Source of the DNA: Rugalucina vietnamica
Lineage: Eukaryota; Mollusca; Bivalvia; Lucinida; Lucinidae
Reading direction: 5' to 3'
NCBI GenBank assembly: GCA_964017185.1
Contig: OZ024869.1
Location: forward strand, 74,250,617 to 74,314,616
DNA: 64,000 bases
The translations under genes and the position numbers were made by a program. The stretch's first letter is position 1, and the number at the start of each line of letters is the position of its first letter. The notes under the pieces were generated by a model. The model was not told where the DNA came from. It was given only the letters and a program-made list of their open reading frames with translations, and did not search any database. Shown here piece by piece: positions 285 through 60,433 of the stretch.

Positions 285-1198
285 TAGCTAGGCAGATTAG
301 TGAAACAATCGTGCATTTGGTGAAACAAGCATGAAATTTGGCATGTAGGCTCAGAATGCCCAACTATTTTGAAAAATATCGTTGTCCAGCCGAAAATTCA
401 AAATGGCGGACAAAATGGCCGCCATTTTCAAAATGGCCGCCCTGAAATACTTCAGATCATAGTTTGCTATCTAAAACTTTACTGCATTGACTGATTTTTA
501 GGTTTTTGGTGTCAGTGTCCGTGTTTAAGAACCCATTGAATCTAAATTTCCACTTAATATTCATACTGGCGTACAAAATGGCGGCCATTTTCAAAATGAC
601 CGCCATTGAAGGCTTGAGTTACAGTTTTTCATCTTACATTTCACTGCGTTGACCGATTTTGATGCTTTTGGTGTCTTAATGTATGTAAATGAACCTATAG
701 ATTATGAATTTACACATAGTTTTCTTGTATTTATTATTTGCCATGACAAATTCGTCAAAGGTAAAGCAAAAACGTCAGCCTTTAATGTGCAAAATGCATT
801 TTGTATGCAGCCGTCTGATAAAATATAATGATTTTAGTTGCCTTTATTTTTGTATAAAGTGGATATGAATATATCAGGTGATTACATTTAATGATTATCT
901 CTTTGCATTTAATATGTTTAGCAATGAACACCATTAAAATAAAAATGGTTGCCATGTTTTGTCCATACAGGTACTTTCCTTTAAAACTGGCAATTCACCA
1001 TTTTGATTGTAAAATGGGACAGTTGTATCATAGGATTGTTATTTTTGCGCCTTATCTTGTGTAATGAGAGTGAAATTATTCCTTCTTTTTAAATTAATGC
1101 ACCATAAATGTCCATGCCGCCCTTTATAATTGACAATTATTGTATGGAATATATGGATTTATGCTCACTTGAAATGGTGTCTGCTAGACAGGTATAGG

Positions 1199-1437
1199 TA
1201 TCAGTGCCATTTATGTGGTAGTTGCATGCATTGGATACACAATAAATGAAATGGCATGAAGGGCACGATGTGTCCTTGCCCTGATTTCAACTGTGCTTCA
1301 TGCTTGAGCTTAGCTAGTCCTATGGATGAAACAGACAAAATGGAGGTGGAGTTTGGTGATGAAAAGAAACAGAGGGATAACACCCATAGAAGACATGCAG
1401 ACTCAGTTGACGTCGAGGACCAGTATGTCCAATAAGG
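1199..1437 (+). pseudogene. Cys/His-rich coding remnant, left arm
   Basis: In one frame this reads a cysteine-dense module (YQCHLCGSC, then MCPCPDFNCASCL) followed by an acidic stretch (DKMEVEFGDEKK). It is interrupted by one in-frame stop (TGA near 1249). The same module, without that stop, is encoded on the minus strand of the opposite arm. The spacing resembles a zinc-binding domain, but the family is not recognised. It may be the leftover of a transposon protein. Confidence 0.45.
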
Positions 1438-1744
1438 TGGAACGGGTCACATAGTTTTGCTATTTAGGGACATGGTCTGTGGTGGCTGTGAACTTGCTGC
1501 TGTTACACGCTGAAAATCAGTTTGCGGAAAGTGCCGCCAATTGCTGCAACCTGTCGCATCTGACCCGATAGCAGGTGTAATCAACCTGTATGAGAAGTGT
1601 TATATTTTATGCTGCAGAGACTTGTGACATGCCTGTTACTACTCTAAACCATCTCAGTTGTTATGGTAGGGCAGTGGTCCATTTGATTTGTAATGTCAAA
1701 GAAAATGATGAAGCTAGTTTTTTTCTATAAAAGCTTGACATCTA

Positions 1745-2234: not shown

Positions 2235-3437
2235 TACTATCATTTTATCCATTTTATAGTCCATTTTCCTCATCTGAGGGTTGACAAGTCTTCCCCGCAA
2301 ATGCCCCTGTCTGTTCAGACCGGTTTTCAGGGTGGTTAAATCAACTCAAAGTTTATTTCTGCCATCTCGAAATAATTCATCCCAAGTTTTCTTTGGCCTG
2401 CATTGTCTCTTCTGTGCAGTTTGCGTACTTGTGCAATCTTTCCATCGCTACACAAGACATACCCAAACCATCTCATTCTGTTAGTGCAAAGTACTAGAGT
2501 TGAAAGCTTTGAGAGAAAGAGCTAGCTTCATCATTTTGTTTGACATTACAAATCAAATGGACCATTGCTTGCCATGACATTGGATATGGTTCAGAGTAGT
2601 CACAGGCATGGTCTAAGTGTCTGCAGCTTGATACATGACACTTCTCACGCAGGTTGACTATACCCGCTATCAGGTTAAAGTAGTTCACAGCCACCACCAG
2701 AGATCATATCCCTAAATAGCAAAATTATGTGACATGTTCCACCTTATTTGACATATTGGTCCTCGACGCCAACCAAGTGGTCATGACTTCTATAGATGCT
2801 TCTTGATGGGTGTTCTCCCTCTGTTTTTTTTTCATCACCAAACTCCACCTCCATTTTGTCTGTTCCATCCATAGGACTAGCTAAGCCCAAGCATGAAGCA
2901 CAGTTGAAATCAGGGCAAGGACACATTGTGCCCTTCATGCCATTACATTTATTGTGTATCAAATGCACGCAACTACCACAAAAATGGCACTGATACTTAC
3001 AAGTATTACAGACATCATTTCAAGTGACCATAAATCCATACAATAATTGTAAATTACAGAGGGCGTCATGGACATTTATGGTGCATTTACTTTAAAAGAA
3101 AGCCTGATTTCACTCTCCTTACACAAGATAAGCGCAACAAATAACAATCTCATTTATACTACGGTCCCATTTTACAACCAAAACGGTGAATTGCCATTTA
3201 TAAGGGAAAGTACCTGTATGGCTAAAACATGGCCACCATTTTGATTTTTAATAGTGTTAATTGCTAAAAAAAATAAAAGAGATAATCATTAAATATAATC
3301 ACCTGACATATTCATATCAAATTTATACAAAAGTAAATGCAACTAAAATCATTGTTTTCATCAGAGGACTCAATATAAAGTGCATTTTGCACGTTAAAGG
3401 CTGATGTTATTGCTTTATATTTGGCAAATATGTCATG
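2235..3437 (-). repeat. right arm of the foldback element, inner part
   Basis: Inverted copy of the left arm from about 2005 back to about 740. It ends at 3437, where the LTR retrotransposon inserted; the arm resumes at 9403. Confidence 0.7.
2744..2998 (-). pseudogene. Cys/His-rich coding remnant, right arm
   Basis: Minus-strand frame reading a module close to the one at 1199-1437: QCHFCGSC, then NKCNGMKGTMCPCPDF, NCASCL and the acidic tail. Here the position that is a stop in the left arm is a Cys codon, so this copy is closer to the original. No start signal or splice context is convincing. Function unknown. Confidence 0.45.
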
Positions 3438-4725
3438 TGTAGTAAACCCGGGTAAAACTGGAGCAAACTAAAATGGTCTCAAATTACTTCGACCAGATAC
3501 CCGGATTTAATGATAGGTTTGAGTCTTAGGCTGGTCGACAGATTCCGCAACTTTGAGTGTTGTTTTGATTTAACTTAAAGTACATCCGCTTTGAGGGAAT
3601 TAACTTTCAACTTGTCAAGATAGCCGACACCACTGACTAAAATTTATAAGGCCAAGTCAGAAGCCTAAACTAGCAAACCAGGCTCAGGCTTATCCTCTGA
3701 TAAACATAACTCTTGTTTGCTAAAGAAACACACAACAAATGAATGAATTTCACTATTATAATGTTGATATTTTTTCCTCTTTAACTGTTATTTACAACAT
3801 GAAACAACAAAACAATTTACATAAATATAGCTATTTTCTTTAATATGATAATTTCTCTTAAGTTCAGACTTAGATTGCACTTTTTGAGATTTTACATAAT
3901 TGCAGCAAATTTTCCTAAGTCCAAAAGTCAAAAATGATGAAAATATTGAAAATGCTAAAATCAATACAAAATGACTTTTCTAAATTTTCCTAATTTTCCC
4001 TATCAATTTCTGATGTTTTTGAAGTGTTTTAAGTCCAAAACGAGCCAATACAAAATAAATAATTATTTAATAATTAATTAATAAATTTAGTCCAAAGTGT
4101 CGCAGGTTTAGTGTATTCCAAAAATGTGTATTGACTCTCCCAACTGACCAAAAACAGGCCTTTTTATACACAGAAAAGCTACCTGCCTACCCATAACATT
4201 AATGTTCTCATCCAATTCAAAAAGCAGGTTTTTAAAGCATGATAAAGCATAAAATGCAGAAAATGGTACACAAACAGCATAAAACATGAACATAACAATT
4301 CAAAACATCATACAAAAAGCATTTAAAAGGCCAATTTAAAGTCAGTTATCCTAAACCAAAATCTGCTTTACCTATTAATAATGGACACTCCCAAAAATGG
4401 GGTCAATAAACAAGAACTGAAGCATTATACTTCTTGACCTAAGCTTGGATACACAATTCTTGAACATGACACAGGTGTGTCAAGAAAAAGGTTACTTATG
4501 ACCACAGTAAATATGGTTAAAACTTCAGCAAATTACATAATAATACACATAATATCAGAGTTTCTTAAATGAGATTAAAGTTAAAGCACTGAAAGTTTAA
4601 AAGTTATGTTTATAAAGTATCTTCACACCAGAATTGGTTTTCATATTAAAATAAGGTAAAATAGCCAGTCAAAAGTAATAACCCTAAAAATCTTAAAAAT
4701 AGTGCCAAAACCCAGGTCCTTCACA
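3438..4725 (-). repeat. 3' LTR of the gag-only element
   Basis: Direct repeat of 8110-9398, 1288 bp, with roughly six differences, one of them a single-base indel near 4188. It carries no ORF of note. It is preceded on its coding strand by the purine tract at 4726-4738. Confidence 0.92.
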
Positions 4726-4738
4726 CTGCTCTCCCTTT
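4726..4738 (-). promoter_or_regulatory. polypurine tract
   Basis: The minus strand reads AAAGGGAGAGCAG immediately before the 3' LTR. A purine-rich run at this place is the expected plus-strand primer for LTR elements. The final CAG means the run is not perfectly purine. Confidence 0.65.
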
Positions 4739-5848
4739 GGAAAAAGAATGTATTTTACCCAAAATACATTCCAATTCCGTCCCCGGAATTCAAAAATAAA
4801 ACAGGAATTTCAGACCAGGAATTCCATTCACATAGAAATAATTCCTGGGTTTTGGTGTAACAATGACACAATCAAGCAAAAATAACATGTCAAGCATACG
4901 TTAGAAAATGCCACACCTCAAAATGGTTTAGAGATATCAGATACAGATAACTTTTGGATCCATAAATTTAAGATACCCCTAACACCCAAGCAAAAGTAAC
5001 ATGTCAAGCATATGTAAGTTTGAAATAATGAAACTGAAACCATGACATTCAATCTTAATACAACAGTCTGACTGATTTCATACGCAAGAAATCTCACACG
5101 CAGTGACAGCACATAGCAAAGTCTCATATGACATGACTACTCATCACACGCAGTGAAGGTACAGACACACGCAGTGAATGCACAAAGTAAGTCCATATCT
5201 CCTGGCTCTTCTCCACCTAACGCATAAGGCAGGCACACACAGTGCACGAGACCAGGCAAAACTTAAACATACATGATCAGATTCTTAGAATTCAATAAAT
5301 ATCAAAACTGCTTTTCATGAAACAAACAAAATGCACACAGTCCTTGACAGTTTCTAAATTAACAACATTATTTCATTATACTTTAGAGTTCAGTTAATGC
5401 ACAGATTACTAAGTAATGTTACGTTGACGAATGACTGTCCCACAAAGAATGTATATATGTATATGTTAATGTCCCACGAAGTATGTAAATAATAATTGTC
5501 CCACGATGTATATTGGCGATGAAAGTCCCACGAAGTTGGTCCTCAGTGAAAGGCCCATGAAGTAGACCCTCATGTCGATGTTGCTGCAGCTTCATGGGGT
5601 AGTTGTTAGCTGCAACTTAACGCCCAGAATGTTAATCCAATCAAGAATCAAATATTATTCCAATTAAGAATAACACACTGTTAACACTTGAGAATTTTAG
5701 CTTTGAATAAACATGCAATTCCAATTGCTTAATCACTAATGATTAAAAAGATTGAACACACATATTTTAACTATTTACACAATACATAAACTTCACTGAC
5801 ACTTTCACAACTTAGTTATAATACACTGAAGCTGAATGAAACAGAACA
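4739..5848 (-). other. non-coding 3' internal region of the LTR element
   Basis: This is where pol would be expected, but no ORF with protease, RT or integrase motifs is seen in either strand. It holds short repeats: ACACGCAGTGA-like units at 5094-5240 and GTCCCACGAAGT-like units at 5435-5565. Confidence 0.6.
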
Positions 5849-6634
5849 CTAGATATACGTTGATGTCGTCTGGTTTGGTTCCTCTGGGCACTGTTTAGAT
5901 TCATGCCCCTTCTTGCGGCAGTTGTAACATAGCCGATAACGTTGTCTTGATTTGGATTTCTTCTGAGGTGGAACATTTTCAACCCGACTGATTACTGTTC
6001 TGGTAGTAAATTGCTTACATGCCTCATGCCAGGTTACCATGTTGACAGCTTCTGATAGATCCCTAGGCTTTTTGATCATAATTTCATAGGCTAATTTCTG
6101 GTCTGGGAGCCCCCTTAGAAAATGTTCCACAGCAAGACTATTGTAGATATTTGTGCCCTGTATTCCTGGGTAGCCTTTTACCATCATACGATTAACATGG
6201 TCACTGTACTCTTGAAGAGTTTCCTTTGGTTGCTTCTTGACGGAGTACAGGTTGGCTCGGTGAGTTTCTGGTAGGAGGCATTCACCAAATCGCTGTCTCA
6301 TGGAGCATAGAAGCTTATCTGTATTTTGAGTAGTTTCCAAAGGGAGGGAGGAGACAAATATCAGATCTTCTCCTCTCAAAGCAAAGATCAGTCGTTCTTG
6401 AAACTTTCTGTCTGACCAGTTATAACTACGAGACAGAAGGTCCAGTTGCATGAGGAATGGCTCCCAGGTATCCTGTTTACCTTCAAATGTTGGTATTCTT
6501 GGTTTAAAGTCATTTTGAACATAAACAGTTTCATAATCATTGTCCCTTGAGGAATAAGGTCTGCTAAGGGTCAGCGTCCTGTCATATGCACAATCAGGTC
6601 CTGGCAGTGGTGAATGTTTGTATGTAAAATCCAT
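5849..6634 (-). CDS. Gag-like protein of LTR retrotransposon
   Basis: 261 codons from the ATG at 6634 to a TAG at 5849-5851; three further open codons lie upstream of that ATG. The middle of the protein (about residues 45-190) has the pattern of a retrotransposon Gag capsid region: FEGKQDTWEPFLMQLDLL, then a leucine-rich helical segment and YSDHVNRMMVKGYPG. Near the C-terminus is one CCHC zinc knuckle, CYNCRKKGHESKQC (C-x2-C-x4-H-x4-C), preceded by a basic stretch (KKSKSRQR). These imply a nucleic-acid-binding structural protein that would assemble particles around element RNA in the cytoplasm. The frame is intact, consistent with the young LTRs. There is no fused or overlapping pol frame. 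Gypsy-type affinity is likely but not certain. Confidence 0.85.
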   Translation of the reverse strand: MDFTYKHSPLPGPDCAYDRTLTLSRPYSSRDNDYETVYVQNDFKPRIPTFEGKQDTWEPFLMQLDLLSRSYNWSDRKFQERLIFALRGEDLIFVSSLPLETTQNTDKLLCSMRQRFGECLLPETHRANLYSVKKQPKETLQEYSDHVNRMMVKGYPGIQGTNIYNSLAVEHFLRGLPDQKLAYEIMIKKPRDLSEAVNMVTWHEACKQFTTRTVISRVENVPPQKKSKSRQRYRLCYNCRKKGHESKQCPEEPNQTTSTYI

Positions 6635-6742: not shown

Positions 6743-7860
6743 CTGTCAGAGATGCCTAATGACGCATTTCTCTTTCAGATATTAATTTTGGTTTCCAAAT
6801 GAAAATTCATGTAAAACAATAATTGCAGGTGTCTTTGGCTTGATTCAATTTAAACTTTACCTGTGTCAGAAACAAAGAGCAGTTAATTGACAGAGATGCC
6901 TAATGACGCATTTCTCCGTCACACATGGAAATCATATAAAAATGACAAACAAGAAATATGGTACACAGGTGTCAGTGGCTTGGTTCAGATTCAGCTAGGT
7001 CTGTGTTAGAAACAAATAGAGCAATTAGTTGACAGAGATGCCTAATGACGCATTTCTCTGTCACACATGTAAAATCATAGAAAATTGTCAAACAAGAAGA
7101 AATGATACACAGGTTCAAATTCCAGACCTGTGTTAGAAACAAATAGAACTATTAATTGACAGAGATGCCTAATGACGCATTTCTCTGTCGTACATACAAA
7201 ATGATGAAATACAGTCAAATGTCAAAGATTTTACACAGGTGTCAGCAGATACTTTCACATTCAGGTGAATCTGTGTAAGAAACAAAGAAAAAACAATTAA
7301 TTGACAGAGATGCCTAATGAAGCATTTCTCTGTCAGACATGCAGACCTAACTTAACACACATAGAAATATACTGCTAACATAACTTATAAGACAAGGTGA
7401 GTTTGCCTAAGGACGCAATCTCTCACCAACAAAACAAACATATAACATAAATTTTGTTAGTGCTGACTTTATGAAATGGTTAGTTTGCCTTCTAGCGATT
7501 CTCACATGCTACAAAACCACGAGGCAGGACTAATCTACTCTTAACCACTAAAAGACACTCACAGACAAACACAAAACATATAACATAAATTTTGTTAGTG
7601 TTGACTTTACGAAAATGGTTAGTTTGCCTTCTAGCAATTCTCACATGCTATAAAACCACGAGGCAGGACTAATCTACTATTAACCACTAAAAGACTTGTG
7701 AGCTTGCCTAATGACGCAATTTCTCACGGACACACAAAAACACAGAACTTAATTACTAAACATAATTACTTAACACATATAGAGCTAACAGTTCTATGTC
7801 CTGAAAATGAATAACAGATTAGTAGATGTAGTGAGTTTGCCTAATGACGCAATTTCTCAC
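6743..7860 (-). repeat. array of about eight conserved hairpins in the gag leader
   Basis: Dyads of 30-36 bp occur at 6743-6778, 6889-6920, 7031-7062, 7158-7189, 7303-7334, 7396-7427, 7698-7727 and 7831-7860. All share the loop CTAATGAC (one with CTAAGGAC, one with CTAATGAA) closed by TGC/GCA. The outer stem is GACAGAGA/TCTCTGTC in the first group, but GTGAG/CTCAC or GGTGAG/CTCACC in the second. Stem bases change together while the loop is kept. Two weaker units occur near 7479 and 7618. They lie between the primer site and gag, in the 5' leader of the transcript. Confidence 0.8.
7436..7695. repeat. two-unit tandem duplication, period 138
   Basis: The segment starting at 7441 (TATAACATAAATTTTGTTAG) recurs at 7579 with few changes and ends with AACCACTAAAAGAC in both. 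It duplicates one degenerate hairpin unit of the leader array. Confidence 0.8.
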
Positions 7861-8090
7861 CAGTACATGCACAACACAGAACAAAAAATACAATAAATGA
7901 TTGCAGCTCAAGTTGTTCTGAAAGATAGACAAAGTTATTTAGAACAGCAGCGCTCTGAAATAAAATAGAAATTTAGTTAGTGAAAACAACAGCACTCAAA
8001 ATTTGTCAGTCTGTCAAGCACAAGTTCTTTTGCAAATATGATTATTTTCCCAGCTATGCTAGAAACACAGAAATCTGAGATAAATAATCT

Positions 8091-8105
8091 CCACTTCTGG
8101 CACCA
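8091..8105 (-). promoter_or_regulatory. primer binding site, tRNA-Leu-like
   Basis: The minus strand reads TGGTGCCAGAAGTGG four bases after the 5' LTR. It starts with TGG, as required to pair with a tRNA CCA end, and resembles the 3' end of some leucine tRNAs. The exact tRNA cannot be settled by eye. Confidence 0.65.
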
Positions 8106-8109
8106 CTTT

Positions 8110-9398
8110 TGTAGTAAACCCGGGTAAAACTGGAGCAAACTAAAATGGTCTCAAATTACTTCGACCAGATACCCGGATTTAATGATAGGTTTGAGTCTTA
8201 GGCTGGTCGACAGATTCCGCAACTTTGAGTGTTGTTTTGATTTAACTTAAAGTACATCCGCTTTGAGGGAATTAACTTTCAACTTGTCAAGATAGCCGAC
8301 ACCACTGACTAAAAATTATAAGGCCAAGTCAGAAGCCTAAACTAGCAAACCAGGCTCAGGCTTATCCTCTGATAAACATAACTCTTGTTTGCTAAAGAAA
8401 CACACAACAAATGAATGAATTTCACTATTATAATGTTGATATTTTTTCCTCTTTAACTGTTATTTACAACATGAAACAACAAAACAATTTACATAAATAT
8501 AGCTATTTTCTTTAATATGATAATTTCTCTTAAGTTCAGACTTAGATTGCACTTTTTGAGATTTTACATAATTGCAGCAAATTTTCCTAAGTCCAAAAGT
8601 CAAAAATGATGAAAATATTGAAAATGCTAAAATCAATACAAAATGACTTTTCTAAATTTTCCTAATTTTCCCTATCAATTTCTGATGTTTTTGAAGTGTT
8701 TTAAGTCCAAAACGAGCCAATACAAAATAAATAATTATTTAATAATTAATTAATAAATTTAGTCCAAAGTGTCGCAGGTTTAGTGTATTCCAAAAATGTG
8801 TATTGACTCTCCCAACTGACCAAAAACAGGCCTTTTTATACACAGAAAAGCTACCTGCCTAACCCATAACATTAATGTTCTCATCCAATTCAAAAAGCAG
8901 GTTTTTAAAGCATGATAAAGCATAAAATGCAGAAAATGGTACACAAACAGCATAAAACATGAACATAACAATTCAAAACATCATACAAAAAGCATTTAAA
9001 AGGCCAATTTAAAGTCAGTTATCCTAAACCAAAATCTGCTTTACTTATTAATAATGGACACTCCCAAAAATGGGGTCAATAAACAAGAACTGAAGCAATA
9101 TACTTCTTGACCTAAGCTTGGATACACAATTCTTGAACATGACACAGGTGTGTCAAGAAAAAGGTTACTTATGACTACAGTAAATATGGTTAAAACTTCA
9201 GCAAATTACATAATAATACACATAATATCAGAGTTTCTTAAATGAGATTAAAGTTAAAGCACTGAAAGTTTAAAAATTATGTTTATAAAGTATCTTCACA
9301 CCAGAATTGGTTTTCATATTAAAATAAGGTAAAATAGCCAGTCAAAAGTAATAACCCTAAAAATCTTAAAAATAGTGCCAAAACCCAGGTCCTTCACA
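8110..9398 (-). repeat. 5' LTR of the gag-only element
   Basis: 1289 bp, near-identical to 3438-4725. On the coding strand it would carry the promoter, but no confident TATA box was picked. Confidence 0.92.
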
Positions 9399-9402
9399 CA
9401 TG

Positions 9403-10408
9403 ACCAATGATAAATACAAGAAAACTATGTGAATATTTATATTCTATGGGTTCATTTACACAGTGAAATGTAAGATGAAAAACTCATTCAAGTCTTCAGT
9501 GGCGTCAATTTTGAAAATGGTCACCATTTTGTCCGCAATCATCAATATTAAGTAAACATTTAGATTCAATGGGTTCTTAATCATGGGCATTGCCACCAAA
9601 AACGTAAAAAAATCAGTCAATGTAGTGAAGTTTTTAAAAGAAGGAATAATTTCACTCTCGTTACACAAGATAAGGCGCAAAAATGACAATATCATTTATT
9701 CATCGGTCCCATTTTACAATCAAAATGGTGAATTGTCAGTTGATTTTAATGGTGTACATTGCTAAACACATAAAATGCAATGAGATACTCATTAAATATT
9801 ATCACCTGACATATTCATATCAACTTTATACTAATTTAAGGGCAACTAAAATCATTATATTTTATCAGACGGCTACATATAAACTGCATTTTGCTCATTA
9901 AAGGCTGAGGTTTTTGCTTTACATTTGACAAATATGCCATGGCAAATGATAAATATTAGAAAACTATGTGTATATTCATAATCTATAGGTTCATTTATGT
10001 ACAATTAGACACCAAAAGCATCAAATTTGGTCAATGCAGTGATATGTAAGACGAAAAACTGTAATTCAAGCCTTCAATGGCTGCCATTTTGAAAATTTCC
10101 GCCATTTTGTCCGCCATTATGAATGTTAAGTGGAAATTTAGATTCAACGGGTTCTTAAACATGGACATTAACACCAAAAACCTGAAAATCAGTCAATGCA
10201 GTGAAGTTTTAGATAGCGAACTATGATCTGCAGTCTTTCAGGGTGGCCATTTTGAAAATGGTGGCCATTTTGTCCGCCATTTTGAATTTTTGGCTGGACA
10301 ACGATATTTTTCAAAACAGTTGGGCATTCTGAGCCTACATGCCAAATTTCATGCTTGTTTCACTAAATGCACGATTTTTATTGAAAATTGACTTAATCTG
10401 CCTAGCTA
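9403..10408 (-). repeat. right arm of the foldback element, outer part
   Basis: Inverted copy of about 285-1080, containing an extra duplicated block (9650-9950) before the terminal part. It ends with TAATCTGCCTAGCTA. Confidence 0.7.
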
Positions 10409-12367: not shown

Positions 12368-14285
12368 TAGCTCACCTGAGCCGAAGGCTTGCAGATGAGC
12401 TTATAGTATACCCATGCTCCAGCGTCCTTCTATCGTCCACAATTTCAAAGATCTTCACCTCTGAAACTCTGGGTCAATCAAAGCCAAACTTCATATGGTG
12501 CATCCTTAGGAAGGGGGAATGTAAGTTTTTATAAATGATCCAGGTCACATGACCAAGCTGGCCGCCATGGCTATAAATAACAAAAACCTTTAAAAATCTT
12601 CTTCTACAGAACCAGAAGGCCTATGATTTTGCAACTTGGCATGAAGCATCAGGCAAGGGAGCTCTATAAAGTTTGTATAAATCATGACCCTGGTATGACC
12701 TTGATCTATTTAACGACAAGGTCAAACTTTATGTGGAGCATTGTTAGGAAGGATGAATGAATGACCTGTATAAAAGGTCAGGGTCACATGACCAAGATGG
12801 CCATCATGTTTTTAAAAAGCAAAAACCTTTAAAAACTCTTCTTCTCCAGAATCAGAATGCCTATGAATTTGAAACTTGGCATGAAACATCATGCAATGGA
12901 GCTCTACACAGTTTGTATAAATCATGACCCTGTTATGACCTTGATTCTATTTAACGGCACGGCCAACTTAGGTCGCTAATGCATTTGAATGGTAAAATAG
13001 TTAAATGTAATTAAATAAGGGGAAAACTTGCTTGGAGTACGCAAATGAACTTAAAATTACAGAAGATTTATGTTTATGAGAACCAATTTGACCCCAGGGG
13101 GTTGTCTGCCCCTGCCCCGGGACTATAAACATGTATATGACCTTAATATTCAAACATCTTCTTCTCTTAGACTGCTAGACTAATTTAAGCCAAACTTTAT
13201 GTGGAGCATTATCAGGAAAAGTTCAAAGGTCAAAGTTCAAAGTTTATTCACTTAAGCATGTAACAGCTCATCGTGATTACATCATATATAATACATACAA
13301 GTGAAGATTGACATATACAAAACAAATACATGAAAATGAAAGTGGATCATTGGATGAGTTCACAAGTACATATGACAAATCTACAATCGATGTACACATA
13401 AAATATTCTAAGCATTTGCGTTTACTAAAGAAGTTCTGTGTTTAAATGCTTCTATAACATACATGTATTTAGCGAACTTCTCAATATGTAGTAAGTTGTT
13501 TTCTTGAAATAATTGCACTAGTTTGAGCATACTTGGTCGTGTATAATAATATTTCTTTATATACCGCTTTCTTAAATTTAATAGAGAATGAAAAAAAAAA
13601 TTATTAAAGGTCAATGGCACATGATCAAGATGGCCGCCATGGCTATAAATAGCAAAAACCTTTAAAATCTTCTGCTCCAGAACCAGATGGTCTATGATTT
13701 TGAAACTTGGCAATAAGCATCAGGCAATGGAGCTCTACAAAGTTTGTGAAAATCATGAACCTGAGGTGACCCTGATCATCAACTTAGGTCGCTAATGTAT
13801 TTGAATGGGAAAAACAGTAAAATGTAATTGAATGGGGGGGGGGGAGACTTGCTGGGAGTATGCAAATGGACAGAAAATTTATGTTTATGAAAAGAATTTG
13901 GTCCTCAGGGGGTTGTCTGCCCCTGTCCCGGGTCTATATACATGTATATGACCATAATATTCAAACATCTACTTCTTTGAAACAGGTAGGCCAATTAAAG
14001 CCAAACTTTATGTGGAGTATCGTTAAGAAGGGGGGGGGATGAAAATTTATGTAATAAAGTCAAGGTCACATGACCAAGATGACCACCATGGCTATAAATG
14101 AAAAAAAAAAAAAATTCTTCTCCAGAACCAGAGAACATATAATTTTGAAACTTGGCATCAAGCATCAGGAAATGGAGCTCTACAAAAATTATGTAAATCA
14201 TGACACTGGGATGACCATGACCTATTTTACGGCAAGGTCAACTTAAGTCGCATATCTCAGATCTCAGGTGAGCGTTTGTCCTCTG
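12368..14285 (+). mobile_element. family M copy 1
   Basis: Starts with TAGCTCACCTGAGCCGAAGG and ends with CAGGTGAGCGTTTGTCCTCTG, lacking part of the usual terminal hairpin. Internal units repeat about every 450 bp with GGTCACATGACCAAGATGG and CATGACCCTG blocks. It carries a nested LINE fragment at 13234-13605. It ends only about 80 bp before exon B, so it makes up most of that intron. Confidence 0.8.
13234..13605 (-). mobile_element. 5'-truncated LINE 3' end
   Basis: A 372-bp insertion inside M copy 1, bounded by a 9-bp duplication AAAGGTCAA (13225-13233 and 13606-13614). The minus strand ends with AATAAACTTTGAACT, a short-repeat tail typical of some LINEs. Its 5' part encodes RKRYIKKYYYTRPSMLKL and a following helical stretch up to a stop near 13408, resembling the extreme C-terminus of non-LTR reverse transcriptases. 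Clade not assigned. Confidence 0.65.
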
Positions 14286-14363
14286 TTATTTTTTTTCATT
14301 TTTTTTTTTTATAAATATTGGTTTCTTTGAACGATTTAACATATGTATTCGAATGTTTTGTAG

Positions 14364-14504
14364 GTCTCCCCATAGACGAACTGATGATTCTAAAACATCT
14401 TTGCTGTTCCTAGCACGGGAAATGTATATGAAGGTACTTGGGAAGAACCACTATGATGTGTATCGCATTGAATGTGTCAACACACCTGATGAAATTCTGA
14501 GCAT
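14364..14504 (+). CDS. internal exon B of the spliced gene
   Basis: Acceptor TTTTGTAG at 14356-14363; donor GTACGT at 14505. The length, 141, equals 1+138+2, so it takes two bases from exon A and leaves two (AT). The frame is open throughout and contains DSKTSLLFLAREMYMKVLG and VYRIECVNTPDEILS. The composition looks like a real globular, helix-rich protein rather than repeat. The family is not recognised, and a P-loop or TPR assignment could not be supported. The 18-kb intron that follows contains M copies 2-5 and several other elements. Confidence 0.62.
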
Positions 14505-15059
14505 GTACGTATTTTTCTATTTTCCATTGAAAACGACAGTAGATCTATTCCGACTAGGGCTGATAAGCCAGATGTTGAATGTAAACAAACTCTACTGCGG
14601 TACAAACTTTACATGAGCTGCAGCCAAGTCACTATTGAATGTATGGGCTTGGGATTAGATGAAATAGATAATATTGCATATTTAAACTTTTTTCAGGGTC
14701 AGTGTGTAATAAAAGTTCACGACTAGTAACATGCTTTCATTGGAAACATTCATTTGTTAAAATTTCCAAGAAAATGCCATATTTGGAAAGTAAAATGCTT
14801 ACAAAAATTATGTTCAAACATAAAGTGGAAAATATGGAAAATACATGTTTAGATGTGGCAGAAGATAACAGTCATAAACCACATAAGATAAACAATGATA
14901 AAATAAAAAATATGAACGTTTTTTTGTTTTTCATTTTCTAAATCCAGTAAATTGGAAGCTGCTAAGGGATAATGAATGTTTCTGAATATGAATATAAGAT
15001 GTAGAGCAAGCAAATGGACAAATGACAACATTTCGATTTTGTCATATTAAGTATTTCCT

Positions 15060-15296
15060 ATGAGGCTATGAACCACTGCAGAAGATTAGGGTGAGGTTAG
15101 GCGCTGGTAAAACCGGTTTAAGTCCCAAGTTATTTTATATTACTGATCGTTCATAGGCGATACTTCTGTTGTGGTTTGGATTCGAGTTCTTGTGCTGTTT
15201 GAGCCTTATGTACGTTTTCATAATTTTAGATCAGTTCGGGTAACTGAGTGGCCGCCAATAGGGGAATAGCTGCTCATTCGGCTAACGATACATTTT
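15060..15296 (+). repeat. family R retroelement tail, left piece
   Basis: Matches 50620-50890 and 63070-63315 (TGAACCACTGCAGAAG ... GCTGCTCATTCGGC). It is interrupted at 15296 by M copy 2 and continues at 17383. The uninterrupted sister copies show the empty target site. Confidence 0.75.
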
Positions 15297-17382
15297 TAGC
15301 TCACCTGAGCCGAAGGCTCACAGGTGAGCTTATAGTATACCCTTGCTCCGGCGTCCGTCCGTCGTCCGTCCGTCCGTCGTTCACAATTTCAAAGATCTTC
15401 TTCTCTGAAACCGCTGGGCCGATCAAAGCCAAACTTTATGTGGAGGGGGTTGTATGCCCCTGCCCCGGAGCTATATACATTTATATGACCATAGTATTCA
15501 AACATCTTCTTCTCTGAAACCGCTAGGCCAATCAAAACCAAACTTCATGTGGAGCATTCTTGGGAAGGGGGAATGAAAGTTTATATAAATGGTCAAGGTC
15601 ACATGACCAAGATGGCCGCCATGGCTATAAATAGCAAAAACCTTTAAAAATCTTCTTCTTCAGAACTAGTGTGCCGATTTCCACGAAACTTGGTATGTAG
15701 CATCTGGGACGCGGGCCCAACATAGTTTATATAAATCATGACCCTAGGATAATCTTGACTTATTTTACGACAAGGCCAACTTAGGTCGCCAATGCATTTG
15801 AATGGGAAAAATGGTAAAATGCTATTTAATGGGTAAAACTTACTTGGAATAGGCAAATGGATAGAAGATTAATGTTAATGGAAAATTTTAGCCCCTGGGG
15901 GTTTGTCTGCCCCTGCCCCGGAGCTATATACATTTATACATTTATTACATCTTCTTCTCTGAAACCGCTAGGCCAATCAAAACCAAACTTCATGTGGAGC
16001 ATTCTTGGGAAAGGGGAATGAAAGTTTATATAAATGGTCAAGGTCACATGACCAAGATGGCCGCCATGGCTATAAATAGCAGAAACGTTTAAAAATCTTC
16101 TTCTTCAGAACCAGAAGACCTATGATTTTGAAACTTGGTGTGAAGCATCTGGGAATGGAGCTCTACAAAGTTTATATAAATCATGACCCTAGGATGACCT
16201 TGACCTATTTTACGGCAGGGTCAAGTTAGGTCTCCCATGCATTGGAATGGGAACAAATAGGAAAATGTAATTAAATGGCAGAAAACTTGCTAGAAATGAG
16301 CAAATGGACAGAGGATTTATGTTTAAGAAAATATTTTGGGCCCAGGGGGTTGTCTGCCCCTGCCCCGGGGCTATATACATGTATATGACCATAATATTCA
16401 AACATCTTCTACTCTGAAACCACTAGGCAAATCAAAGCCAAACTTTTTGTGGAGCATCCTTAGGAAGAGGGAATTAAAGTTTATATAAATGGTCAAGGTC
16501 ACTAGACCAAGATGGCCGCCATGGTTATAAATAGCAAAAAAGTTAAAAAATCTTCTTCTTCAGAACCAGAAGGCCTATGATTTTGAAACTTGGTATGAAG
16601 CATCTTGGAATGGAGCTCTACAAAGTTTATATAAATAATGACCCTTGGATGACCTTGACCTATTTTACGGCAAGGTCAATTTAGGTCTCCCATGCAATTG
16701 AATAGGAAATTATAGGAAAATGTCATGTAATGGCTGAAAACTTGCTAGGAATGAGCAAATGGACAGAAGATTTATGCTTATGAAAATATTTTAGGCCCAG
16801 GGGTTGTCTGCCCCTGCCCCGGAGCTATATACATGTAGATGACCATAATATTCAAACAGCTTTTTTCTCAGAAACTGCTCAGCCAATCAAAGACAAACTT
16901 TAGGTGGAGTATCCTTAGGAAGAGGAAATGAAAGTTTATATAAATGGTCAAGGTCACATGACCAAAATGGCCGCCATGGCTATAAATAGCATTTTTTTTT
17001 TTAATCTTCTTCTTCAGAACCAGAAGGCCTATGATTTTGAAACTTGGCGTGAAGCATTAAGAAACGTAGGTCTACAAAATTTGTAAAAATCATGACACTG
17101 GGATGACCTTGATCTATTTTTCGGCAAGGTCAACTTAGAAGATCGCCCATGCATTTGAATGGAGAAAATTGTTAAAATGTCATTTGAAGGACAAAACTTG
17201 CAGTTAATTGGCAAATGGACTGAATTTTTATGATTTGAAAAAGACATTGACTCCAGGAGTTTTTCTGACCCTGCCCTAGGGTTATATACATGCATTTTAC
17301 CATTCCAGTCTAACAAGTTTATTGGTACATGTATATACCTCAGGTCTTAGGTGAGCGTTTACAGGACCATTGGTCCTCTGGT
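15297..17382 (+). mobile_element. family M copy 2, complete
   Basis: Full-length copy: 5' hairpin (GCTCACCTGAGCC / GGCTCACAGGTGAGC), GTCC-rich tract, four to five ~450-bp units, and terminal hairpin AGGACCATTGGTCCT followed by CTGG. It sits inside a family R copy. Joining the flanks restores the sequence seen uninterrupted at 63310-63335, with no duplicated bases beyond T. No protein-coding capacity is supported; ORFs here shift between units. Confidence 0.85.
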
Positions 17383-17530
17383 CTTGGTATACGTACCTAA
17401 GTGTCATTTTAGTTTTTTTTCCCACCCCTCGGTTTATGGAGTGGGAATATCTTTCTGATTGCGCCATTTCCTGATCATTGCCTACTTGTATATTTTTGTA
17501 CCAGATAGCAACATTGTATCACCATTGCTT
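17383..17530 (+). repeat. family R retroelement tail, right piece
   Basis: Continuation of 15060-15296. It ends with the family's 3' signature, TTTCTGATTGCGCCATTTCC then TGATCATTGCCTACTTGTA. Confidence 0.75.
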
Positions 17531-18173
17531 CAGTGTTCTTTGCAACCTTGTGTCCCTGCCCATTGGGGATGTGAGAAATAGATGGGTTGCATATGGCATT
17601 ATTTATATCTGACTAGCCATCTGATTACTGGTTGATTGTAAATCGAAGGTCTGATTCTGGCCATGAAACGCAGTTTAGTCAAACCACCCATACATTTAAA
17701 CCTAGCCTCGGGGAGGCGGTTCAAACGAGTTTTCACCATCTATGTTTTTAGCAAAAATGAGAAAAATAAAAAAAAAACTTTCTACTGATTTTTTTTTATT
17801 TTTACAACTTAAAAATATTTGTTTATTGCATGGGCGTGTTTTCGTAATGTTTAAGCACATTTTGGATAGCTTTAAATACTAATATTTTGCTTAAGTCCCT
17901 TAACATGGAGTCAATGTCCAGAAATGATTATATTTTCCTTAAAAGAAGTTTTGCACCACTTAGATTATTTTTCATATTTTAGTGACATTTTGGTAAACAA
18001 GTAAAACCTACCTTTTGGAATTGGCACAGTCTGAATGAGTTTGATAAAGAATGTGATAAGACAAAAAATCGAATCGACCTTGTATGAAACTAATCTCATG
18101 CACGATATCTGTGTGAATAGAAAAAAATATCAAACAATGAAATTACTTGTTTCTCGAGAGTCCGTACTATCTA
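17531..18173. repeat. mostly unassigned; part of a TTTGCACCACTTA repeat
   Basis: Positions about 17740-18050 are an inverted relative of 33050-33680 (GTTTTGCACCACTTAGATT and flanking AT-rich sequence). The rest shows no feature. Confidence 0.5.
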
Positions 18174-18424
18174 CAAAAATGGCCGCCTACACCTTATGGT
18201 CCAACACCAGTAAAAAGTATCCCATAGGTCTCAATATATCCGAACTCCCTCACTTTGTGACACTCCCAGCTAGTACCCAACCTGACACGACCAAAAAGTC
18301 TTCTCTAACTTGATAGCCCAGCCACACCCCTACCCAAAGGTGCCACTACCGAGGGGCTGACCATCTCGACTTTCCGGTATTCCATTTGGCAATATACATG
18401 TACATGTACCTATGGGCGGATTTT
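18174..18424 (+). repeat. family T repeat, first part
   Basis: AAAATGGCCGCCTACACC ... CCTATGGGCGGATTTT. It is interrupted by M copy 3 and resumes at 20206-20270; a second partial tandem unit follows at 20271-20412. An uninterrupted copy lies at 25083-25255. Confidence 0.75.
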
Positions 18425-20205
18425 TAGCTCACCTGAGCCGAAGGCTCACAAGGTAAGCTTACAGGATGGCCATGCTCCGTCGTCCGTCCGTCGTCCGTCC
18501 GTCCACAATTTCAAAGATCTTCTCCTCTAAAACCGCTTGGCCAATCAAAGCCAAACTTCATGTGGAGCATCCTTAGGAAGAAAGGACAAAAGTTTATATA
18601 AATGGTCCAGGTCACATGACCAAGATGGCCGCCATGGCTATAAATATCAAAAACCTTTAAAAATCTTCTTCTTCAGAACCAGAGGGCCTATGATTTTGAA
18701 ACTTGGCATGAAGCATCACAGAAAGAAGCTATACAAAGTTTATATAAATCATGACCCTGCAATGACCTTGACCTATTTTACGGCAAGCTCAACTTAAGTC
18801 GCCAATGCATTTGAATGGTGAAAAATGGTAAAATGTTATTAAATGGGTAAAACTTACTGGGGATAGGCAAATAGACAGAAAATTAATGTTTATGGAAAAA
18901 TTGTGGCCCCTGGGGGTTGTCTGCCCCTGCCCCTGGGCTATATACATGTATATTTCAATAATATTGAAACATCTTCTTCTCTAAAACCGCTTGGCCAATC
19001 GAAGCCAAACTTCATGTGGAGCATCCTTAGGAAGAGGAAAAAAGTTTGGCGGCCCCCGTGGCCAAGTGGTTAAGGTCGCTGACTTCAGTGCTCTTGATCA
19101 TTCGATCATCTCACCGATGTGGGTTCGCGCCTCGCACGGGGCACGAATTCATATGTGAGACAAGCCATGTTCTGCTTGCGGGTGTGTCAGGTGGTTATCC
19201 CCGGGTACTCCGGTTTTCGCCCCACCTACCGATTGATTCGTCTCGATATGAGTGAAAAAGCTTGAAAGGGACGTAAAACTGAATCAAAAAAAAAAAAAAA
19301 AAGAAAAAAAAAAAGTTTATAAACATGTAAATGGTCCAGGTTACATGACCAAGATGGCCGCCATGGCTAAAAATAGCAAAAACCTTTAAAAATTTTCTTC
19401 TCTAGAACCAGAAGGCCTATGATTTTGAAACTTGAAACATGAAGCATCAGGCAATGGAGCTTTACAAAGTTTATATAAATCATGACCCTGGGATGACCTT
19501 GATCTTTTTTACAGCAAGGTCAACTTAGGCCGCACATGCATTTGAATGGGAATAAATAGGGAAATGTCATTTAATGGCAAAAAAACTTGCTTGGAATGAG
19601 CAAATGGACAGAAGATTTATGTTTATGAAAATATTTGGGCCCAGAGGGTTGTCTGTCCCTGCCCCGGGGCTATATACATGTGTATGACCATAATATTCAA
19701 ACATCTTCTCTGAAACCGCCTGGCCAATTAAAGCCAAACTTTATAAGGAGCATTCTTAGGAAGAGTAAATGAAAGTTTGTATAATTGGTCAAGGTCACAT
19801 GACCAAGATGGCCGCCATGGCTATAAATAGCAAAAACCTTTAAAAATCTTTTTCTCTAGAACCAGAAGGCCTATGGGTTTGAATCTTGGCATGGAGCTCT
19901 ACAAAGTCTGTATAAATCATGACCCTGGGATGACCTTGACTTTTTACGGCAAGGTCAAGTTAGGTTGCCCATGCATTTGAATGGGGAAAATTGTTACAAT
20001 GTCATTTGAAGGGCAAAACTTGCAGTAAATTGGCAAATGGACTGAATCTTTATGAGTTAAAAAAGAAATTGACTCCAGAGGTTGCTCTGACCCTGCCCTT
20101 GGGTTATATACATGTATATTACCATTCTAGTCAAACAAGTTTATTGGTATATACAATGTATCTCATGTCTCAGGTGAGCATTTACAGAACCATAGGTCCT
20201 CTGGT
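18425..20205 (+). mobile_element. family M copy 3, complete, with SINE inside
   Basis: Starts TAGCTCACCTGAGCCGAAGG and ends GAACCATAGGTCCTCTGGT. It was inserted in a family T repeat: the empty counterpart at about 25180-25190 reads GGGCGGTTTTTACACTCTAG without duplication. A SINE at 19048-19308 interrupts one unit. Confidence 0.85.
19048..19308 (+). mobile_element. tRNA-derived SINE with 10-bp target duplication
   Basis: The head (19048-19145) resembles a class II tRNA with a long variable arm: A-box-like GTGGCCAAGTGG, B-box-like GGGTTCGCGCC. The body contains CCCCGGGTACTCCGG and AAGGGACGTAAAACTGAATC, followed by an A-rich tail. The target duplication AAAAAAGTTT lies at 19038-19047 and 19309-19318, inside M copy 3, where sister units read on without a break. 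Confidence 0.85.
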
Positions 20206-27123: not shown

Positions 27124-28627
27124 GATAGTTCGTCTCTCACTAATGAGAAAGACCATCATTATTTCTTGAATAGTGCTGATGTGTGTTGGTGAGTTCTTTG
27201 ATGGCTGACTAGGCCAATTCTGGCTCTAAACTGTCGGTTGCATGTAGAGCAAGTCAATGTCATAGAGTCTGCTGGTGGCACATTTGTTTTGGCTTTGCGC
27301 TCTCTTCGCTTTCTTTCAGCTTCACAGATTCTCTTCTTTTCATAGAGAGCTGCTCCTTTGTTGATGAGACCTCGCCACTTTGATCGCTCCTGTGCAGTCT
27401 GTTCCCAGGACCCCATTGGTATTTCGAAATCCTTCAGAGAGGCTTTGAGGGTGTCTTTGTAGCGTTTCTTCTTGAGAGTACCTTGAGAGCGCTTTCCCTC
27501 CTGTAGTTCTCCATAGAAAACTTTCTTTGGAAGTCGCGCATCAGGCATTCTTATAACATGGCCAGTCCATCTTAGCTGTGCTAGCTTTAAGACTGTATGC
27601 ATGCTTTGCATCCCTGCTTTCCTCAGGACCTCTGTGTCTGGAATCTTGTCCTGCCACTTGATTTTTAACAACTTTCTCAAACAGCTTAAGTGGAAATGGT
27701 TAAGTCTCTTTGCATGGCGTTGGTATACTGTCCAGGTCTCACATGCATACAAGAGGGTTGGCAGTACCACAGCCTTGTAGACTTTCAGCTTGGTGTCAAG
27801 CTTGATTCCATTTCGCTCCCAGACATTTGCACGGAGTCTTCCGAATGCCACACTAGCTTTTGCAATTCTGGCAGTGATCTCATCATCAATATGCACTGCT
27901 CTGGAGAGAGTGCTTCCCAGGTAGGTGAACTTGTCAACAACTTTCAGTTTTTGCCCATTCACAGTGATGGTTGGTTCATTATATGGTTTTCCGGGGGCTG
28001 GTTGGTGAACAACCTCTGTCTTTTTTGTGCTGATTGTGAGATCATAGTTATCACATGACTGTGAGACTTGATCCATGGCTCTTTGCATTTTTGCCTCTGT
28101 GTTGGCATTCTTATCCATATCATCTGCATAGAGGAGCTCATCTAGCACATCAGTCTGGACCTTAGTTTTGGCTTGCAACCTTCTGAGGTTGAATATGTTG
28201 CCATCAAAACGGTACCTGATTGGAAAACCAGTGTCACTGTCCTGAAAAGCATCCATAAGCATGGCAGAAAACATCATGCTGAACAGTGTTGGTGCCAGAA
28301 CACAGCCTTGTTTTACCCCATTTGTTACTTCAAATGGTTCAGAGAACTCTCCATCACTTTGCACACGTGCCTGCATGCCATCATGAAACTGCCGCACCAT
28401 AGCTATGAATCTGGGTGGACAGCCAAACTTGGCCATGATTTTCCAGAGTCCATCACGACTAACAGTGTCAAAAGCTTTGGTGAGGTCAACAAACGTCATG
28501 TATAGATCTACATTCTGTTCTTGGCATTTCTCCTGAAGCTGTCTTGCTGTGAAGATCATGTCTATTGTCCCTCTGTCTTTTCTGAATCCACATTGACTTT
28601 CTGGGATAAGTCCCGTCTGATCAAGAC
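27124..28627 (-). mobile_element. 5'-truncated non-LTR retrotransposon (LINE)
   Basis: A 1504-bp insertion bounded by the 10-bp duplication GTGAGCTTAT (27114-27123, 28628-28637). The host sequence GTGAGCTTATAGGATGGCCA is continuous in other M copies. The minus strand encodes the C-terminal two thirds of a reverse transcriptase and a short 3' region of about 35 bp without a poly(A) tail. Confidence 0.9.
27159..28627 (-). CDS. non-LTR reverse transcriptase, C-terminal part
   Basis: The open frame runs on to an ATG at 28733, but its first ~36 codons are M-repeat sequence, so the retrotransposon part starts near residue 37 (LIPESQCGFRKDRGT). RT motifs are in order: FVDLTKAFDTV (catalytic Asp), NGVKQGCVLAPTLF, LLYADDM (YADD active site), then FTYLGS, YACETW and RWTGHVIRM in the thumb region. 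A C2H2-like finger CSTCNRQFRARIGLVSHQRTH minus its last residue sits at the C-terminus (C-x2-C-x12-H-x3-H). Endonuclease and the N-terminal RT part are missing through 5' truncation. No stop or frameshift in about 490 codons suggests a fairly recent insertion. The product would copy element RNA at nicked DNA, but this fragment cannot be autonomous. The clade is left open. Confidence 0.88.
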
Positions 28628-30550
28628 GTGAGCTTATAGGATGGCCATGATCCGGCGTTCGTCCGTCCGTCCGTCGTCCGTCCACAATTTCAAAGATCTT
28701 CTTCTCTGAAACCGCTTGGCCAACCAAAGCCATATTTTATATGAAGCATCTATAGGAAGGGGGAACCAATGTGTCTATAAGAAATCCAGGTCACATGACC
28801 AAGATGGCCGCCATGCCCATATTTGGTAAAAACCCTTCAAAAATTTTCTTCTCCAGAACCGGTAGACTGATTTCAACGAAACTTGGCATGAAACACTGAT
28901 GCCTCAAGCACTACAATCATGACCCTGTGATGACCTTGACCTATTTTACGGCAAGGTCAACAAAGGTCGCCAATGCATTTGAATGGGGAAAACTTTTAAA
29001 ATGTCATTTAAAGTGAAAGTCTTGCAGGAAATGGGCAGTAGGACTAAATATTAATGATTCTGAAAAAAAATGGATCCCAGGGGCTCATATGCCCCCACCC
29101 CGGGGCAATATACATGTATATTACCATACTATTCAAACATCATCTCCTCTGAAACCGGTTGGCCAATCAAAGCCAAATTTTATGTGAAGCATCAATGGGA
29201 AGGGGTAATCAATGTATATATAAATAATTCAGGTCACATGACCAAGATGGCCGCAATGCTCATATATGGTAAAAAACCTTCAAAAATCTTCTTCTCCAGA
29301 ACCGGTGGATCGATTTCATAGAACTTGGCATGAAGCATTGATGACTCAAGTACTGCAATGTATATATAAATCATGACCCTGTGATGACCTTGACCCTTTT
29401 TTACGGCAAGGTCAACATAGGTCGCCAATGCATTTGAATAGGGAAAACTTTTAAAATGTCATTTAAAGTGAAAGTCTTGCAGGAAATGGGCAGTAGGACT
29501 GAATATTAATGATTCTGAAAACAAATGGACCCCAGGGGCTCATGTGCCCCCACCACGGGGCAATATACATGTATATTACCATAATATTCAAACAACTTCT
29601 TCTCTGAAACCGCTTGGCGAATCAAAGCCAAATTTTATGTGAAACATCTATGGAATGGGAGAATTAATGTATATATAAATTATCTAGTTCACATGACAAA
29701 GATGGCTGCCATGCCCATATATGGTGAAAACCCTTCAATAATCTTCTTCTCCGAATCTGGTGGACCGATTTCAAAGAAACTGGGCATGAAGCACCAATGG
29801 CTGAAGTACTACGATGTATATATTATAAATCATGACCCTGTGGTGACCTCGACATATTTTACGACAAGGTCAACATAGGTCGCCAATGCATTGGAATAGG
29901 GCTTTAAAAAGTCATTTGAGGTGAAAATCTTGTAGGAAATGGGTAGTAAGTAATATTAATGATTTTGAAAAAAAAAATTGACCTAAGGGCTCATATGCCC
30001 ACACCCCGGGGCAATATACATGTATATTACCATAATATTCAAACATCTTCTCCTCTAAAACCACTTGGCCATTAAAGCCAAATTTTATGTGAAGCATCTA
30101 TAGGATGAGGGAACCAATGTGTATATTAATAATCTAGGTCACATGACCAAGATGGCCACCATGCCCATATATGGTAAAAACCCTTCAAATATCTTCTTCT
30201 CTGAAACCAATGGATTGATTTCAATGAAACTTGGTGTGAAGCATCCATGGCTATAGTACTACAATGTATATATAAATCATGACCCTGTGATGACCTTGAC
30301 CAAGTTTATGGCAAGGTCAACATGGGTTGCCCATGCATTTGAATGAGAAAAACTGTTAAAATGTCATTTGAAGGGAAAAGCCAGCAAGAAATTGGCAAAT
30401 GGACAGAATATCGATTATTCTGAAAATAGATAACGGCCCAAGGTCTTCATCTGCCCCTGCACTGGGGTTAAATACCATAATATTCAAACATGTTTATTGG
30501 TATATGCAGCAGACTCAGTTGAGCGTTTACAGGACTATTGGTCCTCTGGT

Positions 30551-60260: not shown

Positions 60261-60433
60261 GGATATAAGGGAGTATACAATACATGGACATGTTTTCCTG
60301 ATGCGAGGTTAAGATGGCTTAATTTATTTTGCACGGTATATTTAAGGTTTAGATATTTGCGCAAGTGATTAACAGTGCTATTTAATCTCATAAAGATGAT
60401 GAATCAGTTGTTCAAGAATTAATTCCATATTTT
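60261..60433. other. unassigned
   Basis: Short AT-rich spacer. Confidence 0.4.

Follow-up and report, generated by a model that had tools for sequence, protein, structure and literature searches.

In the leader of an LTR retrotransposon of the lucinid bivalve Rugalucina vietnamica, we found an array of hairpins that combine a near-constant loop with stems of two sequence classes, and the leaders of other element families in the same genome carry hairpin arrays with other loops. The RNA structure of these hairpins is well supported by sequence comparison. We lean towards reading the array as a multi-copy, family-specific structured RNA signal, whose reader would most likely be Gag and whose step would be packaging.

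The window, which here means the whole stretch of 64,000 nucleotides that was analysed, contains the element on its minus strand, and the RNA form is therefore the reverse complement of the letters as displayed. Two near-identical LTRs, a primer binding site and a purine tract, the features by which a Ty3/gypsy-type element is recognized, were all found. The parts of the element are as follows:

8110 to 9399, minus strand: 5' LTR (in sense orientation), 99.5% identical to 3438-4726, with TG...CA ends by inspection
8091 to 8105, minus strand: primer binding site TGGTGCCAGAAGTGG, compared across copies, most of which have TGGTGTCAGAAGTGG
5849 to 6634, minus strand: gag ORF of 261 amino acids with a capsid-like region and one CCHC knuckle, without a pol frame after it
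4727 to 4742, minus strand: purine-rich stretch adjoining the 3' LTR, by position the polypurine tract
3438 to 4726, minus strand: 3' LTR, from comparison of the LTR pair

The primer binding site probably resembles the 3' end of tRNA-Leu. Approximately 1.1 kb downstream of gag is without a long open frame, and no pol frame is present in the window copy. Against Pfam, the window Gag scored 19.8 bits for zf-CCHC and 15.4 bits for Retrotrans_gag, both below the cut-off. Window positions 303-1736 match, at approximately 76 to 91%, inverted copies at 2504-3437 and 9399-10379, the sequence that flanks the element, so that the element seems to be inserted into a repeat. Elsewhere in the window, at 12400-20150, 28600-30430 and 60400-62550, lies a large dispersed and tandem repeat family in which successive copies are often approximately 443-466 nt apart.

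Eight hairpins, five of class 1 and three of class 2, lie between the primer site and gag. Their RNA loop is GUCAUUAG (plus-strand DNA form, CTAATGAC), and each unit is built of a lower stem that varies in sequence, an internal loop whose 5' side is longer and contains A, an upper stem of 4 bp and the near-constant loop. In RNA sense, class 1 reads GACAGAGA-AA-UGC-GUCAUUAG-GCA-UCUCUGUC and class 2 reads GGUGAG-AAA-UUGC-GUCAUUAG-GCAA-A-CUCACC. The structured units of the leader, in the order of the RNA, are the following:

7829 to 7862, minus strand: class 2 hairpin with loop GUCAUUAG, by folding
7696 to 7729, minus strand: class 2 hairpin with loop GUCAUUAG, by folding
7614 to 7649 (about), minus strand: class-2-like unit without the conserved loop and without a fold, by folding against shuffles
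7475 to 7510 (about), minus strand: second class-2-like unit without the conserved loop and without a fold, by folding against shuffles
7395 to 7428, minus strand: class 2 hairpin with the loop variant GUCCUUAG (plus-strand form, CTAAGGAC), by folding
7302 to 7335, minus strand: class 1 hairpin with the loop variant UUCAUUAG (plus-strand form, CTAATGAA), by folding
7233 to 7276, minus strand: second stem between class 1 hairpins, arms 7269-7276 and 7233-7240
7157 to 7190, minus strand: class 1 hairpin, by folding
7107 to 7133, minus strand: second stem with a shortened loop, arms 7126-7133 and 7107-7114
7030 to 7063, minus strand: class 1 hairpin, by folding
6963 to 7006, minus strand: second stem, arms 6999-7006 and 6963-6970
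6888 to 6921, minus strand: class 1 hairpin, by folding
6823 to 6866, minus strand: second stem, imperfect, arms 6859-6866 and 6823-6830
6744 to 6777, minus strand: class 1 hairpin, the terminal unit, whose lower stem has two mismatched pairs (8/10 kept), by folding

All eight hairpins of the window folded with z values of -2.0 to -5.1 relative to shuffles. A previous, sequence-only reading of this DNA had described eight dyads with a common loop closed by TGC/GCA, with outer stems in two classes that change on both sides together, and had placed them between the primer site and gag. Position, near-constant loop and the two stem classes were borne out, and the TGC/GCA closure was found in 8/8 dyads, but the loop is exactly CTAATGAC in only 6/8. 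A second conserved stem, ACACAGGU/ACCUGUGU, which lies between class 1 hairpins, had gone unnoted in that reading. At each of its eight positions, the number of paired modules was between 64 and 74 of 75, counted at columns that were chosen by hand after RNAalifold had missed that stem; on the 75 whole class 1 modules, RNAalifold recovered the hairpin and not the second stem. A search of Rfam with its curated families gave a single match, on the plus strand, with 19.9 bits (gathering threshold, 50) and an E value of 2.8, and two hairpin patterns gave 0 matches in viral contigs.

The copies of the element were picked without using the array, by a search with the word at the junction of LTR end and primer site. 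This word has 27 exact matches genome-wide, and 27/27 adjoin hairpin matches. An exact word would miss copies with an altered junction; a search with two mismatches gave four further sites only, all of another family. Of the junction sites, 26/27 were read. In the 1.09-Gb genome (47 contigs), the 14-nt core TGCCTAATGACGCA of the hairpin was counted 181 times, compared to 0 occurrences of the reversed control, and 174/181 fall in the 26 copies read. These copies contain 209 countable units, 128 of class 1 and 81 of class 2, with 7 to 11 per copy, and class 2 precedes class 1 in 26/26 copies. Omitted from the count were 2/211 units that exceed 7 mismatches (L033:4761 and L043:5185), the unit L042:4395, whose 5' arm is replaced, and an off-array chance word (L043:2257). 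The replaced-arm unit of L042, at approximately 4395 (sense), stands beside an intact class 2 unit at 4323 and looks like a rearranged duplicate. Class-2-like units without the conserved loop were present in 22/26 copies, at 1 to 3 per copy. No antisense units were found in the loci of the copies; all units found share one orientation. The loop is exactly GTCATTAG (GUCAUUAG) in 174/209 units, GUCCUUAG in 18 and another variant in 17. Besides the AUG that class 1 hairpins enclose (window 6756-6763 and the other class 1 loops), 91/128 units have a second in-frame AUG 15 nt upstream, within a conserved CATGT.

Random stem mismatches in other copies, or absence of the array from young copies, had been named beforehand as observations that would speak against selection on structure, and neither was seen. 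All 209 units keep at least 8/10 pairs, and 159/209 keep 10/10. LTR pairs were found in 10/15 loci examined, 97.0 to 99.9% identical and several of them partial, with that of L042 in two pieces of 99.5 and 100%, and the array is present in these copies. Within the stretch covered for the three copies with a pol frame, no LTR pair was found, and the statement on young age applies to the copies with a pair.

The hairpins are better conserved than their surroundings. Between the copies with a long Gag (L031, L034, L041 and L050) and the rest, ungapped identity is 93-98% over the 32-nt hairpins, whereas the 50-nt flanks need gaps and reach 75-90%. When the 73 distinct hairpins of both classes were taken together, 93.2% of the cells were paired (81.5% in shuffles), the covariation score was 0.467 (0.256 in shuffles; 0.03-0.21 in slid versions), and 133 cells were double-changed (43 in shuffles); for each of these three values, 0/500 shuffles were as high. 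RNAalifold, applied to the same alignment, found 7/10 pairs changed on both sides. The number of pairs with a both-sided change, 6 versus 5.0 in shuffles (108/500 as high), and the number of pair types, 14 versus 14.3 (389/500 as high), did not exceed shuffles in this set of 73 hairpins. Stem covariation had been taken by the sequence-only reading as the mark of selection on RNA. This stands between the classes, where the covariation is strong, but is weak inside class 1, where 4 double-changed cells compare with a shuffled mean of 1.8 (29/500 as high) and the score is reached by 82/500 shuffles. Since the signal is nearly gone in class 1 alone, the covariation of the family is mainly the difference between class 1 and class 2, and this difference may be one old event. 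Within-class transitions that keep a G-U pair outnumber those that make an A.C mismatch by 10 to 7 change types and by 34 to 8 rows, but one position dominates the rows, and we place no weight on this asymmetry.

The stronger evidence pointing to RNA structure is found in other families, beyond the window. The four extra junction sites belong to a second family, in which 4/4 copies read (L056-L059, first 1.2 kb, sense) have seven words of the form UGUUGGU, UGUGGU or UGUGGGU per leader. At least 3 paired bases, counted outward, flank 25/28 of these loop words, and the arms vary by site (AAGUU/AACUU, GAUC/GAUC, GGAUU/AAUCC, GGGCU/AGUCC and AAAGCU/AGCUUU). In thirteen distinct hairpins, 48/52 inner cells were paired versus 38.4 in shuffles (0/20000 as high); copy by copy, 26-27/28 were paired versus approximately 21 in shuffles (5 to 11 of 5000 as high). 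A doublet of this family was found at seven places in a genome search. A fifth copy (L076) has the same seven hairpin words, and a fuller member (L077) combines six stem-bearing words with a Gag frame of 535 amino acids and a protease frame. Neighbouring hairpins of the second family can sit on a shared outer stem, as in both doublets of L059 and the second doublet of L056. For the first doublet of L056 no such fold was found, and five doublet stretches were not clearly stabler than shuffles (z of 0.11 to -1.87).

Moreover, all of six loci upstream of Gags that are approximately 50-59% identical to that of the window (L078-L083) have leader arrays, with 2 to 10 hairpins each. Two hairpin types were distinguished in them, alpha (GGAGG-AAA-UCGC-AUCUCAG-GCGA-C-CCUCC) and beta (UGCAG-ACUA-CUGC-AUGAUAG-GCAG-C-CUGCA). 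Both have the architecture of classes 1 and 2, that is, a lower stem, a 5' internal loop, a 4-bp upper stem and a 7-nt loop, with other loops and other stems, and the layout of alpha equals that of class 2, including the AAA bulge that faces a single nucleotide. Among 40 hairpins collected by loop word (14 alpha and 26 beta, with AUCUCAG- and AUGAUAG-like loops, respectively), 40/40 have 4/4 upper pairs and at least 4/5 lower pairs, and one compensated change, from UCGC/GCGA to UCAC/GUGA, was found in alpha. The 10 distinct arm pairs of alpha and beta alone were 96.7% paired versus 78.1% in shuffles (1/5000 as high). Pooled with the first family, 38 distinct arm pairs had 93.3% of cells paired versus 71.6% (0/5000 as high); in this pooled set, both partners change from one hairpin type to another at seven of nine pair positions. 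Alpha hairpins folded with z values of -1.5 to -2.4; beta hairpins were no stabler than shuffles (z of about -0.9), and of two that were tested, one adopts a different fold. The loop words of the second family, alpha and beta were chosen after inspection of the sequences. Excluded from the alpha and beta counts were five off-array word matches (in L077, L079, L080, L082 and L083), four of which have at most 2/4 upper pairs and one of which (L082) is cut by the end of the locus; L083 also has an alpha-like unit, at approximately 1530, that lacks the loop word and was not included. The spacing of hairpins in L078-L083 is often approximately 58 nt, and pyrimidine-rich words, TTTCTTTTTCAGCT, which resemble splice acceptors, recur between beta hairpins.

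Two detectors were applied to leaders. The first, which requires different stems, flagged the second family (0/100 shuffles as high in 4/4 copies) and did not flag the first (18/100 shuffles as high in the window copy, 24/100 in L041), so its negative result on 16 further leaders that share the primer site says little. The second detector found no loop common to at least two hairpins in the first approximately 1.43 kb of these 16 leaders, all of which come from one contig and 7/16 of which begin identically, apparently as one family. As positive controls, it gave 6 in both the window copy and L041, and 3 and 4 in L056 and L057; in L078, L080, L079, L082, L081 and L083 it gave 8, 9, 2, 3, 3 and 4, with L079 the weakest, its top loop not being that of its array. 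The seven leaders that begin identically (L063-L066, L068, L069 and L075) share one word that resembles a hairpin, TTGC-GTTGAG-GCAA, at 524 nt from their start.

The array is carried by elements with very different coding parts. LTR ends, primer site and hairpins are common to the copies, and the coding part differs. When gag matches were assigned by position in the 27 array loci, the window Gag type was found in 11 (8/11 without an internal stop) and a long Gag frame of 547-553 amino acids in 4; other open Gag frames have 401 (three loci), 339 (three), 390 (two, approximately 4 kb from the array), 298 (two) and 360 (one) amino acids, and one locus has broken gag pieces only. In three of the long-Gag copies (L031, L034 and L041), a second frame overlaps and follows Gag; the fourth, L050, was read over its array only. 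The partial pol frame of L034 matched RVT_1 (4.8e-32) and Asp_protease_2 (1.7e-07), with the RNaseH-like model below the cut-off. In ten gag-only copies followed from LTR to LTR (the window copy, L032, L033, L035-L040 and L042, some with partial LTRs), no non-Gag frame of at least 150 amino acids was found inside the element. The array is thus common to copies with a pol frame and to at least three gag-only types with strongly differing Gags. It had been described as belonging to a gag-only leader, which is true of the pol-less window copy but not of the copies with a protease/reverse transcriptase frame; the accompanying guess, that a pol-less element might be linked to a partner, is supported by the finding of the same array together with such a frame in the same genome.

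Between Gag types, dN was approximately 0.24-0.50 and dS was 0.6-0.7 (331-amino-acid versus long type) or ranged from above 1.3 to not computable, with dN/dS of 0.07-0.41 where computable. Within the window Gag type, dN/dS was 0.12-0.24, except for two close pairs with 0.83 and 1.36; the L033-L039 Gag pair had 0.59. Several gag-only types keep their Gag frames mostly open, and these frames are under purifying selection. Across Gag types, capsid residues show strong conservation, and the zinc knuckle reads CYNCR or CYDCR in gag-only Gags versus CFYCN in the long Gag. Of the other Gags compared with Pfam, those of L033 and L041 reached the cut-offs of zf-CCHC and PNMA and that of L032 did not. 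The 331-amino-acid Gags (L032 and L044) have a capsid near that of the long type (L031, L034 and L041) and a knuckle like that of the other gag-only types, which suggests recombination between element types.

Protein-binding RNA hairpins look like this: the loop hardly varies, the stem varies but stays paired, and an internal loop lies on one side. We infer that Gag is the reader, that packaging is the step and that cooperativity is the reason for the many copies. An element-encoded reader, most likely the nucleocapsid part of Gag, would recognize the hairpins, and the array would mark the RNAs of one family for packaging. Gag-only relatives would be packed into the particles of a pol-bearing partner, or assembled with them, and copied with its reverse transcriptase, and several sites per RNA would allow cooperative loading of Gag. 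Packaging of the Ty3 gRNA depends on the NC domain and its zinc finger, according to the cited part of PMC4974528. Since the knuckles of gag-only and long Gags differ and the hairpins hardly do, at least one Gag may not read the hairpins. The class-2-like units that persist without the loop, the beta hairpins that are no stabler than shuffles and the weak covariation inside class 1 also speak against this reading, and the reader may serve another step than packaging.

A role of the array in dimerisation or long-range pairing is possible. A 9-nt complement of loop and stem (GCCUAAUGA, GCCTAATGA) lies 46 nt after the start of the last core in 4/4 long-Gag copies (sense positions: L031, 4625; L034, 5007; L041, 4970; L050, 1408) and in 0/22 others, so that long-range or intermolecular pairing in the pol-bearing partner would be possible. 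A shorter loop complement, GCCUAAUG (GCCTAATG), was found in spacers of 7/26 copies. The full 8-nt complement CTAATGAC, expected of a kissing-loop partner, did not occur in sense orientation in any of 11 element stretches.

If the reader were instead a host protein, the hairpins might help to export the long leader RNA from the nucleus, to stabilise it or to control its translation, which we regard as unlikely. Structure and conservation would suit any RNA-binding protein, near-identical hairpins despite different Gags fit a common host protein, and the leaders of 11 copies, with 1.3-2.3 kb and 17-46 AUGs each, may need help in translation or export. However, the loops differ within one genome (GUCAUUAG, AUCUCAG, AUGAUAG and UGUUGGU), which is unexpected of one shared reader, and no array was found in the first 1.4 kb of the 16 further leaders that share the primer site. 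That loops differ by element family within one host favours an element-encoded reader over a host factor.

The units might also act as DNA, as an array of protein-binding sites of the enhancer or insulator kind. The inner word ATTGCGTCAT presumably resembles a pair of bZIP half-sites, every unit found has a single orientation, and tandem repeats sit in the leader, as in the gypsy-type insulator. According to the cited sections of PMC8872304, repeats in the 5'UTR act as insulators or have other regulatory roles in gypsy, ZAM and Idefix of Drosophila, and repeats of Tirant and ZAM are described in those of PMC5408687; leader repeats as such are known from gypsy-type elements. As far as these sections go, the Drosophila repeats are DNA sites for host proteins or have an unclear role, whereas here the units form hairpins whose arms change in a complementary way and whose loops are specific to a family. 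The arms change in a complementary manner around a constant centre, and across families with different centres; a bound DNA word needs neither complementary arms nor a one-sided internal loop. We consider binding at the DNA level improbable.

Less probable still is that the array tunes gag translation by short upstream ORFs, although class 1 hairpins enclose AUG CGU CAU UAG and start and in-frame stop are kept in 124/128 class 1 units (two with UAA for UAG). Also in its favour, AUGs were below the shuffle mean in 11/11 leaders. Class 2, with the same loop, has UUG or CUG for AUG in 81/81 units, so that an upstream ORF cannot be the common function; furthermore, alpha hairpins are without AUG, and beta hairpins have one AUG without a near stop. 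Finally, 77/102 class 1 spacings are 138-148 nt and the flanks are homologous, from which it follows that the array grew by duplication, but that it is nothing more than functionless inverted repeats spread in tandem is very hard to reconcile with hairpins better conserved than their own flanks and with the same shape, in other sequence, in other families.

Packaging signals of RNA viruses and phages have shared loop motifs on varied stems. In these systems, many RNA sites jointly promote assembly of the coat protein (cited part of PMC6281560), as the units of the array may do with Gag. The viral signals are dispersed over the genome, whereas here the hairpins stand together in the leader, an untranslated part of a reverse-transcribing element. 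With the psi of retroviruses and Ty elements, the array has in common the position in the leader, the stem-loops and the proposed reader, Gag/NC; it differs in having 7-11 near-identical hairpins of one design. In various retroviruses, destabilised stem-loops of the leader impair packaging, as stated in the section cited of PMC8396678. Ty3 has a 5'UTR of 193 nt, and the cited passage of PMC11381356 calls the cis sequences for its packaging "not precisely defined". TRIMs and other pol-less LTR elements likewise lack pol and depend on an autonomous partner (PMC3532108, in the part cited); here, by comparison, several gag-only types have mostly open Gag frames that are under purifying selection. 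In the open-access literature searched, no report of a multi-copy hairpin array in the leader of an LTR element was found.

For this Ty3/gypsy-type clade, we tentatively propose that a constant, old scaffold carries a loop that serves as a family address and switches as families split, that Gag would read this address, and that gag-only parasites would keep the address of their partner in many copies. The genome holds a natural set, in which one architecture occurs with at least three loops and another design with a fourth, in pol-bearing and in gag-only elements. With this set it can be tested whether a loop code separates the RNAs of different families and how pol-less elements parasitise their partners.
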